Source of the DNA: Dethiosulfatarculus sandiegensis
GTDB taxonomy: Bacteria > Desulfobacterota > Desulfarculia > Desulfarculales > Desulfarculaceae
Reading direction: 5' to 3'
DNA: 64,000 bases
Assembly: GCF_000931935.2 (NCBI RefSeq)
Contig: NZ_AZAC01000003.1
Location: 186,001 to 250,000, forward strand
The notes beneath the pieces are model-generated. The model was given only the letters and a program-made list of their open reading frames with translations. It was not told the origin of the DNA and did no database searches. This document shows positions 60,989 through 63,381 of this stretch, piece after piece; within the stretch, counting starts at the first letter, position 1; each line of letters begins with the position of its first letter. Both the position numbers and the translations under genes were made by a program.

Positions 60989-61831
60989 CTATTGGCCTGT
61001 TTTTTCAGGCGGCAGGTTGAGGATCTCCCGGGCCTCGGCGCAGGTTGCCACTTCCCGGCCCAAGATTCGAGCCAGCTTTACAGTGCGCTCCACAAAATCC
61101 GCATTGCTCGAGGCCTTGACCCCCCGACTCAGATACAGGTTGTCTTCAAAACCCACCCGTACATTGCCGCCCATGAGCATGGCGTGGGTGGTCAAGGGCA
61201 GCTGATTGGCCCCGGCGGCCAGAACCGACCATAAGGCCCCTTGGGGCAGGCGGCTCACAAAACTTAAAAGCGAAGGCAGATCCGCAGGCGCCCCCCATTT
61301 AATACCCAGGCAGATCTGAAAATAAGGCGGCGCTTCAATCAGGCCCTTTTGCACCAGGTCCGCAGCCTGCAGCACATGCCCCACCTCAAAGACCTCCATC
61401 TCCGGCTTGACCTTTTTCTGCTGCATGCGCCTGGCTGCTTTTTCCACCCATTCGGCGGGATTGATAAATACATTACCCCTGAAGTTCAGGCTGCCCACAT
61501 CAAGTGAGCAGAGATCCGGTCCCAGTTCAGCCGGCATCAACCTGGCCTCGCCCGGGTCCGGATCCTCTATGCTGAAGGCGCTGGTGGTGAGGTTTATCAG
61601 CATGTCGCTTTCAGCGCGAACCCGTTCAACCACCTCGCTAAAAAGCTCACGCTTGAAATCAGGCTTGCCGGTTTTGGGGTCTCTTACATGTACATGCACC
61701 ACGCTTGCACCGGCCCTCCAGCAACGTAGAGCCTCTTTGGCAATTTCTTTTGGGGAATAAGGTACATTAGGGTTCTGCTCGCGCATGGGAGCCGAGCCGC
61801 ATACCGCGGCTGTGATGATCAGTTTGGCCAA
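60989..61831 (-). CDS. BKACE-family beta-keto acid cleavage enzyme (Kce-like)
   Basis: TTG start with GGAGGAG 6 bases upstream; 280 residues. The DUF849 (BKACE) TIM-barrel family cleaves beta-keto acids with acetyl-CoA, for example 3-keto-5-aminohexanoate in lysine fermentation. Zinc-binding VVHVHVRDP and the INLTTS segment are present, with a second half rich in GANQLPLTTHAMLMGGNVRVGFEDNLYLSRG. Which keto acid it uses depends on active-site residues that cannot be judged here. No lysine-fermentation aminomutase genes are nearby. Confidence 0.88.
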   Translation of the reverse strand: MAKLIITAAVCGSAPMREQNPNVPYSPKEIAKEALRCWRAGASVVHVHVRDPKTGKPDFKRELFSEVVERVRAESDMLINLTTSAFSIEDPDPGEARLMPAELGPDLCSLDVGSLNFRGNVFINPAEWVEKAARRMQQKKVKPEMEVFEVGHVLQAADLVQKGLIEAPPYFQICLGIKWGAPADLPSLLSFVSRLPQGALWSVLAAGANQLPLTTHAMLMGGNVRVGFEDNLYLSRGVKASSNADFVERTVKLARILGREVATCAEAREILNLPPEKTGQ

Positions 61832-62303
61832 GTTTTCTCCTCCACGGGTTGTCTCCGGTTTGGGTAAGAGATTTTTTCGTGTTCAGTTATGGTTGAGAAA
61901 CCAGTTCCCACCGGCCTGCGGCCGGATGCGGCGGGCGCGTCCTTTGGGCGGGAAAAATTTTTGCACCCAGGGCCTGATTCTACGGTCCAATATTTTGTAC
62001 GTAATTTTTCCTTTAGTTAATTATACTTAGCAAATGGTTACATCTTGGTTTATTTTTTTGGGTATAAAATTTTGTACCCTGCTGGAAGTTAAATTTTGAA
62101 CGGTTTGCCGATAAAATTATAACTAACTGTAATTGCTATATTTATTTTACATTAAAGATATTCTGTGTTTTTGGCATCTAAATTGCATTGCCAATCAGTA
62201 CCCTTTTTCTTTTTCCCTTTCTGATAGCGCCGGGTCTACCCAACCCGGCGTTATCTATTTCAGGGGTGCAAGGCGTCTGACTAGTTTCAGGCGCTTTGTT
62301 TTT
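61832..62303. other. Intergenic region carrying a putative small-RNA gene
   Basis: These 470 bases lie between BKACE and uspA, both on the minus strand. The first 330 bases are AT-rich and hold the BKACE promoter region. The last 130 bases hold a plus-strand sigma-54-type promoter and two hairpins (62172-62306). Confidence 0.55.
62172..62187 (+). promoter_or_regulatory. Sigma-54-type promoter
   Basis: TGGCAT (62172-62177), 5 bases, then TTGCA (62183-62187). GG and GC are spaced by 10 bases, as in the -24/-12 consensus TGGCAC-N5-TTGCA. It points away from the flanking protein genes, towards the hairpins that follow. Confidence 0.55.
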
Positions 62304-62306
62304 TTA
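62198..62306 (+). ncRNA. Candidate sigma-54-dependent small RNA
   Basis: Transcription from the promoter at 62172-62187 would begin near 62198 and give an RNA of about 110 nt. A pyrimidine-rich 5' end is followed by a 13-bp hairpin (62223-62235 with 62243-62255, one G-U, loop CTACCCA). The final stem (62270-62280 with 62287-62297, two G-U) leads into a T7 tract ending near 62305. No protein frame with a ribosome site lies within. The end lies tail-to-tail with uspA, whose stop is at 62304. Confidence 0.45.
62270..62306 (+). terminator. Intrinsic terminator of the candidate small RNA
   Basis: AAGGCGTCTGA pairs with TCAGGCGCTTT over 11 bp (two G-U) around CTAGTT, then G and seven Ts. There is no T run on the opposite strand, so it acts on plus-strand transcripts and not for uspA. 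Confidence 0.7.
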
Positions 62307-62777
62307 TTGGTGCCTGCGTCTACGCACCAGGAATACTGGGCAAGGTGCTCTGCGGCTCACCTTTTCGGCCACGCCTCCCATGAACATGCCCGACACGGCA
62401 GAGGTTCCCCTGGCTCCCATCACAATAAAATCGGTCTTTTCTTCTTCCGCCACTTTGATGATCTGGTTATAGGGCACCCCATAGCGCACCAGGGTTGTCA
62501 CTTTAAGCTTTTTGTCGTATTTGATGCCTTTTTGTTTTTCCTGCTCCAGTACGGTTTTAATTTCCTGGGCCATGTCGTCATGCGACATTTTTTTATAGAA
62601 TTCGTCTTTAAGCTCCTCATGGGCATAGGGCATGCTTTGCATGACTCTGCCGTCCACCACGTGCAGAACTAAAAGTTCGACATCCAGGGCAGAGCCAAAG
62701 GTAAAGGCATATTCCAGGGCGCGGTTAGATGCCTCGGAAAGGTCTGTGGGGACCAGAATTTTAGTGAACTTCTTCAT
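62304..62777 (-). CDS. Universal stress protein (UspA family)
   Basis: The ATG at 62777 (MKKFTKILVPTDLSE) has AGGAGGG just upstream and is preferred to the frame's earlier ATG at 62807; it gives 157 residues. It has the UspA pattern ILVPTDLSEASNRALEYAF and an ATP-binding GARGTSAVSGMFMGGVAEKVSRRAPCPVFLV near the C-terminus. It overlaps the end of the DUF1850 gene by 17 bases. In Halomonas a UspA protein (TeaD) binds ATP and controls a TRAP transporter, so a regulatory partnership with the TRAP permease here is plausible. Confidence 0.9.
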   Translation of the reverse strand: MKKFTKILVPTDLSEASNRALEYAFTFGSALDVELLVLHVVDGRVMQSMPYAHEELKDEFYKKMSHDDMAQEIKTVLEQEKQKGIKYDKKLKVTTLVRYGVPYNQIIKVAEEEKTDFIVMGARGTSAVSGMFMGGVAEKVSRRAPCPVFLVRRRRHQ

Positions 62778-63381
62778 TTTGCCCTCCTTGGGGAGTCCAT
62801 GGACCAAAACCCGCTATATATTTCAGCCAGGCCGCCAAGCTGGGATGCTCCACTCCTATCACCAGAAGACTGCCTGACTTAAGGCTGTTAAGGTCAAGGG
62901 CCTTCCGGCCTATGGTAAGCTGTGTTTGATTTATAGGGGAAAGAAAAAAACGTATATTCGGCAGAAGTTTTTTACCTTCGTCAACCACCAGCCATTTGCC
63001 CTGGCGTGTGGTTCGCTCCGGCGAGGTGTTCGGCAGCCCCGTGCCCACTGATTCCATTTTGGTGGCCAGGTTTAAAAGCCCTTTTCCCGCCACTTCGAAC
63101 ACGCCTTGAACCTTGGTTTTTTCCACTGAATGGCGGTAGGTCAGAAAGAGCTGTTCCCCTGTCGATGCCTTTACCGCTTCCACCAGGCGGTTTTTTTCTC
63201 TGGGCAAGCGAATGGTAAGGGCTGTTATTGGTTGCATAACAAGGGCCGTGACGGCCAAAAATGCCGCCACGGCCGGAATGATTATCAGTTTCAGCGATAG
63301 GCGCGGCAGTTTTTTTCTCCTGTCGGCTTGGGCTGCTAAGCTACCTGGGCTTTTGCTTTGCCTTTGCGGTTCTTTTGCCAA
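62761..63381 (-). CDS. DUF1850 protein associated with TRAP transporter
   Basis: The 206 residues have a basic N-terminus and a membrane segment (about 28-48, LKLIIIPAVAAFLAVTALVM). A domain with YRHSVEKTKVQGVFEV, the DUF1850 signature, follows. The frame starts inside the TRAP permease gene (46-base overlap); a later start is possible but no better ribosome site was found. DUF1850 proteins usually lie next to TAXI-type TRAP transporters, as here. The role is unknown. Confidence 0.78.
   Translation of the reverse strand: MAKEPQRQSKSPGSLAAQADRRKKLPRLSLKLIIIPAVAAFLAVTALVMQPITALTIRLPREKNRLVEAVKASTGEQLFLTYRHSVEKTKVQGVFEVAGKGLLNLATKMESVGTGLPNTSPERTTRQGKWLVVDEGKKLLPNIRFFLSPINQTQLTIGRKALDLNSLKSGSLLVIGVEHPSLAAWLKYIAGFGPWTPQGGQNEEVH

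Follow-up and report, generated by a model that had tools for sequence, protein, structure and literature searches.

A sigma-54-type small RNA of Dethiosulfatarculus sandiegensis belongs to a conserved RNA family and is probably driven by a dedicated two-component system

The 64,000-nucleotide stretch of Dethiosulfatarculus sandiegensis DNA analysed here (the window) almost certainly contains, by the comparative evidence, a real small-RNA (sRNA) gene of a conserved family rather than a chance feature. The best explanation of the observations, taken as a whole, is that this sRNA acts in trans, that it belongs to a family spread across the Desulfobacterota, that its sigma-54-dependent transcription is activated by a dedicated regulator, and that it represses mRNAs for envelope proteins; we put the probability of this entire explanation at roughly 0.75. 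Post-transcriptional control is almost unexplored in the sulfate-reducing and syntrophic Desulfobacterota, and what is gained is one defined, conserved sRNA family with a likely activator, predicted sites for its binding and envelope targets open to testing, in culturable genera.

The features of the locus are collected in Table 1. The promoter stretch reads TTGGCATCTAAATTGCAT, with the GG at 62173-62174 and the GC at 62185-62186, an N10 spacing. The pattern TGGCAYNNNNNTTGCW has a single exact match within the 64 kb, where about 0.1 would be expected by letter count; because of this expectation the motif alone is weak and could be a chance occurrence, and therefore conservation had to decide. 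In the alignment of the homologues, which lie at other loci, GG-N10-GC is kept at the 5' end, and the exact element read by the preliminary description stands. The other parts named there, the pyrimidine-rich leader, the hairpin (GATAGCGCCGGGT-CTACCCA-ACCCGGCGTTATC) and the terminator ending in T7, were all recovered on the plus strand. The terminator consists of a stem at 62268-62299 followed by the T-run at 62300-62306 and was picked up independently by a terminator scan. Folded as RNA, positions 62196-62306 reach -48.3 kcal/mol (z = -7.35), a stability equalled by 0 of 200 shuffled sequences. As had been claimed, no plausible ORF was found inside the gene.

Table 1. Features of the sRNA locus and its surroundings (positions in the window)
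Feature	Positions	Strand	Basis
Third, weaker activator site (predicted), GGGAAAAATTTTTGCACC	61950..61967	.	Weight matrix: rank 4 in 64 kb, 15.6 bits
Second, weaker activator site (predicted), GGTCCAATATTTTGTACG	61984..62001	.	Weight matrix: rank 2 in 64 kb, 16.9 bits
Main activator site (predicted), palindrome GGGTATAAAATTTTGTACCC	62060..62079	.	Weight matrix; search at <=1 mismatch
Sigma-54 -24/-12 promoter, TGGCATCTAAATTGCA	62172..62187	+	Read from sequence; aligned with homologues' promoters
Small RNA gene, predicted transcript ~109 nt	62198..62306	+	Start inferred from promoter
Pyrimidine-rich seed, diverged anti-Shine-Dalgarno leader	62200..62222	+	Comparison with family copies
Family hairpin, 13 bp, loop CTACCCA	62223..62255	+	Folding, covariation
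Extra Rho-independent terminator, particular to window copy	62268..62306	+	Terminator scan, folding
BKACE-type gene, divergent neighbour, outside module	60989..61831	-	Name from the preliminary description
uspA (Pfam Usp), convergent neighbour, outside module	62304..62777	-	ORF list, Pfam

A plain DNA similarity search over 60 relatives returned mostly chance matches, except for a pair of genomes from a single genus of the same family, in both of which a unit of promoter, leader and CGCCGGG hairpin occurs twice in tandem. A covariance model built from five copies (R1), run alongside a pattern search, gave significant matches in 18 of the 20 family genomes, the window's own included, and also in one genome of another family within the same order (G020). 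R1 also recovered, at E 1.4e-9, a second copy in the window's genome, on contig C1 (L075, G000:C1:105109-105225), which lies outside its training set. Across 26 copies, in an alignment that was fitted to the covariance model, 96.7% of stem cells are paired and both-sided changes occur at 12 of the 13 pairs; 0 of 500 shuffles were comparable, and no slide came near either. A second covariance model, R2, found the RNA in other families of the phylum; the window copy, a member of the training set, matched at E 2.4e-14. An sRNA gene of about 110 nt, as first proposed, is strongly supported, since homologues elsewhere keep the promoter, the leader and the covarying stem; promoter and stem were retained together in relatives, and their loss from close ones did not occur. 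At the gathering score, Rfam 15 matched no sRNA family, Qrr included, to the window or to 19 homologous loci, and lenient thresholds brought nothing relevant; no description turned up in the literature searched, where the family appears to be undescribed.

In most relatives the T-run directly follows the family hairpin, which is itself the terminator, whereas the window copy has the extra terminator hairpin. It is a diverged paralogue of the contig C1 copy. Its leader is without CTCC and without ACCAGCTT, both present in most family copies, and because these seed elements have been lost, the window copy may have other targets or be decaying. The contig C1 copy, for its part, has an additional leader hairpin, ATCAGGCAAGGCCTGAT, absent from the other copies.

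The genomic settings of the homologues bear on an earlier suggestion, namely, that the RNA could serve as an antisense of the uspA or TRAP operon mRNA; in the form considered here it would act via read-through past the terminator. The sRNA gene and uspA do converge, with the T-run of the former in contact with the stop codon of the latter (62304-62306). However, the overlap is confined to the T-run, a strong terminator stands ahead of uspA, and the homologues adjoin quite different genes, such as glyA, era, TPR or others, with many Desulfarculaceae copies following glyA. Nor did target prediction make the start regions of uspA and the downstream ORF consistently preferred partners: the uspA start region ranks 4/58 in duplex formation with the window copy vs 55/58 with the second copy, and the ORF at 63381 does not qualify as a partner. 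An antisense role, thus described, seems to us very improbable, and the trans-acting sRNA is the reading followed below. In many of the glyA-linked copies (L051, L052, L056, L057, L079, L081, L083 and L009), a stretch about 1-27 nt before the -24 element complements the seed of the same genome's sRNA; such an anti-seed could serve to silence RNA reading through from glyA, or act as a sponge.

Upstream of the promoter lie elements that the preliminary description had missed, the activator palindrome and two weaker sites (Table 1). A palindrome, GGTTCAAAAATTTGTACC, is common to the relatives roughly 100-130 bp upstream of the sRNA, and the main site of the window is situated about 128 bp before the predicted start, a distance that fits a sigma-54-dependent sRNA. 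When all positions of the 64 kb were ranked by a weight matrix built from the relatives, this site came out at the top with 24.6 bits, and three of the four best sites fell within 61950-62079. In the whole genome, sites within one mismatch of GGTWCAAAWWTTTGWACC occur only before the two sRNA copies, at C3:248061 (window position 62061) and C1:105306. The same holds more broadly: at <=1 mismatch most of the 20 family genomes contain one or two instances of the palindrome, nearly always just before an sRNA copy. Two extra matches, on small contigs and near contig ends (G018:C476 and G018:C525), perhaps mark further sRNA copies.

What binds these sites is suggested by the outgroup genome G020, where the genes immediately preceding the sRNA encode, by Pfam, a histidine kinase and an NtrC-type response regulator; the regulator, AT-rich GGTAAAA-TTTTAC sites and the sRNA stand side by side, followed by glyA. 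In 7 genomes, belonging to 3 families, the sRNA is preceded at a distance of 200-380 bp by the best homologue of this regulator. A receiver-domain scan of named genomes gave 80 regulator loci, the best of them in Desulfarculus sp. and Desulfarculaceae, and an R2 search of 0.8 Mb gave 47 matches, 42 of them on the strand of the regulator gene and 73-534 nt past its stop codon; by locus, 42 of the 80 have the RNA gene downstream at this distance, and 42 of 43 hits are so placed. About half of the 80 loci are without an R2 match, some being truncated, some having the RNA relocated and some remaining unexplained. We read regulator and sRNA as forming a dedicated two-component-system/sRNA module, in which direct control of the sRNA by the two-component system is, on these comparisons, very probable.

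In the window's own family, regulator and sRNA are unlinked, and because of this the case for control there depends on orthology together with the common activator site. Every family genome (20/20) has one clear orthologue of the regulator, at 56-61% identity, the next best protein reaching 50% or less; in the window's genome it is G000:C12:58465-59814, with the kinase beside it. The lack of linkage, together with the dozen or more NtrC-type regulators per genome, leaves room for another enhancer-binding protein to control a real sRNA family in Desulfarculaceae. Against this speak the single clear orthologue in all family genomes and the arrangement in G020, where regulator, GGTAAAA-TTTTAC sites, sRNA and glyA occur together: with glyA after the sRNA there and before many Desulfarculaceae copies, the unlinked copies are tied to the linked one. 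A different activator in this family is, in our estimation, unlikely, and the orthologous regulator is preferred. The nitrogen control that had been raised initially is not indicated. The linked regulator belongs to a dedicated two-component system that is sometimes encoded with mlaEFD (upstream of the kinase in six loci, a minority) and therefore points to the envelope.

The leaders hint at what the RNA might do. Most carry CTCC, CCTCC or TTCC, complementary to Shine-Dalgarno (SD) sites, and in 25 of 43 copies from the phylum the reverse complement of the leader spells a whole SD-spacer-ATG (mean 4.1 and maximum 9 in 200 shufflings). In 17 of these 25 the mirrored start shows ATGARRAA, often ATGAARAAA, a usual beginning of signal-peptide genes. 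The general excess of complementarity of the leaders to all start regions is small. One could suppose that the SD-ATG complement is in fact a small ORF on the minus strand and the plus-strand RNA incidental, given that some phylum members do read SD plus ATGAARAAATTA on that strand. But the sigma-54 promoter, the activator sites and the T-run are all on the plus strand, and the minus-strand frames mostly end after few codons, shift between relatives and are absent from the window copy, which makes this notion scarcely credible. An action by protein binding, in which the sRNA would sequester Hfq or a Crc-like factor instead of pairing with mRNAs, is less easily dismissed, in view of the short, repetitive pyrimidine leader, the C-rich loops and the precedent of other sigma-54 sRNAs, CrcZ and GlmY, that titrate proteins. 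Still, protein titration does not predict that 25 of 43 leaders mirror starts with the correct SD-ATG spacing, and we regard it as a lesser prospect. Base pairing at translation starts is the reading that we retain, and we consider it more probable than not, with less assurance than for the regulatory link, that the sRNA represses the translation of mRNAs for envelope proteins.

Among the Desulfarculaceae, pairing is possible between the conserved ACCAGCTT and AAGCTGGT, codons of MKKLV, and a search for a AAGCTGGT-type pattern behind an SD site picked out genes for a LysM outer-membrane lipoprotein and for a porin-like protein (Pfam Gcw_chp). This first search pattern favoured MKKLV starts, and therefore orthologues were re-collected by protein homology. 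Their start regions have a median rank of about 5% against same-genome sRNAs, in a ranking by duplex energy alone in which the background comprised no more than 104 start regions, roughly called; the LysM gene of the window's genome ranks 2/104 with the window copy and 0/104 with the second copy. The LysM start region of genus g3 shows only weak complementarity, and cognate sRNA/target pairs had no gain in ranking over non-cognate ones. Because duplex energy alone was considered and cognate pairs fared no better, these targets remain predictions, and the LysM lipoprotein is a tentative target of the window copy, with the odds somewhat against it. As a phylum-wide target it was set aside, the orthologue being found only in the window's family; likewise, when six other genomes were searched for one mRNA that carries the full GATGAARAAATTATNAGGTT as a strong match, only the sRNA itself and scattered sites came up. 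Taken together, the mlaEFD linkage, the seed and the target data favour an envelope-homeostasis circuit.

In such a circuit, a membrane kinase would sense an envelope signal, and the regulator would bind the upstream palindromes and activate sigma-54 RNA polymerase. The pyrimidine seed of the resulting sRNA would then pair with SD and start regions in mRNAs that encode exported envelope proteins, blocking their translation, with the hairpin presumably both terminating and protecting the RNA. In a more sweeping and speculative form, which we hold to be somewhat less likely than not, this would be a phylum-wide two-component system whose sole direct output is an sRNA mimicking the complement of a generic signal-peptide start (SD-ATG-AAR-AAA), so that the synthesis of many exported proteins is throttled simultaneously; the DNA-binding domain of the regulator would have been swapped during evolution along with the sites that it recognises.

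A sigma-54-dependent sRNA under a dedicated regulator is of a kind already known from Qrr and GlmY. In Vibrio quorum sensing, the NtrC-type regulator LuxO and sigma-54 drive the Qrr RNAs, which are short, multi-copy sRNAs pairing with start regions, one copy often lying beside the regulator gene; Rfam detected no sequence relation to the present family, and the organisms, the regulator group and the probable targets differ. GlmY/GlmZ with GlrR and CrcZ with CbrB are likewise sigma-54-dependent sRNAs under a dedicated two-component regulator, and GlmY/GlmZ serve the envelope, but they differ from the window family in sequence, length and action, which is protein titration. MicA, RybB, OmrA/B and MicF repress outer-membrane-protein mRNAs at the SD site or start. 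Should the target prediction hold, the window family would act in the same manner and would then be a Desulfobacterota counterpart of the enterobacterial envelope-stress sRNAs via a different sigma factor; those RNAs are unrelated to it in sequence and are under sigma-E or other regulators, not sigma-54. The nearest published case, compared by description only, is Dv_sRNA2 of D. vulgaris, whose gene, just downstream of that for the response regulator DVU0679, is the regulator's target; the RNA is expressed on tiling arrays, and site and sRNA are conserved in related Desulfovibrio (PMC3333781). The likeness is that of an sRNA gene just behind its regulator. The reported distribution of DVU0679 covers some Desulfovibrio, Desulfotomaculum and Symbiobacterium (PMC3333781), whereas the regulator described here is widespread in Desulfobacterota.

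This regulator is not uniform across the phylum. In three families (f95, f42 and f76) a winged-helix-like domain takes the place of its Fis-type DNA-binding domain, and the replacement goes with a different upstream motif: in f95 and f42, the regions upstream of the sRNA contain TGGCGNGATT-type repeats, not the palindrome. Among the individual loci, L175, L177, L181, L182, L183 and L185 encode regulator orthologues in which the Fis HTH has given way to a C-terminal winged-helix-like domain (FITNKYY...ISERQALREL...GKGRACRYLL); that of L175, the one scanned, has no Pfam match. At L236, where a sigma-54 promoter lies 181 nt beyond the regulator gene, it is followed not by the sRNA but by a small ORF preceded by a good SD (MNHDNKRGRFGPPGD...).
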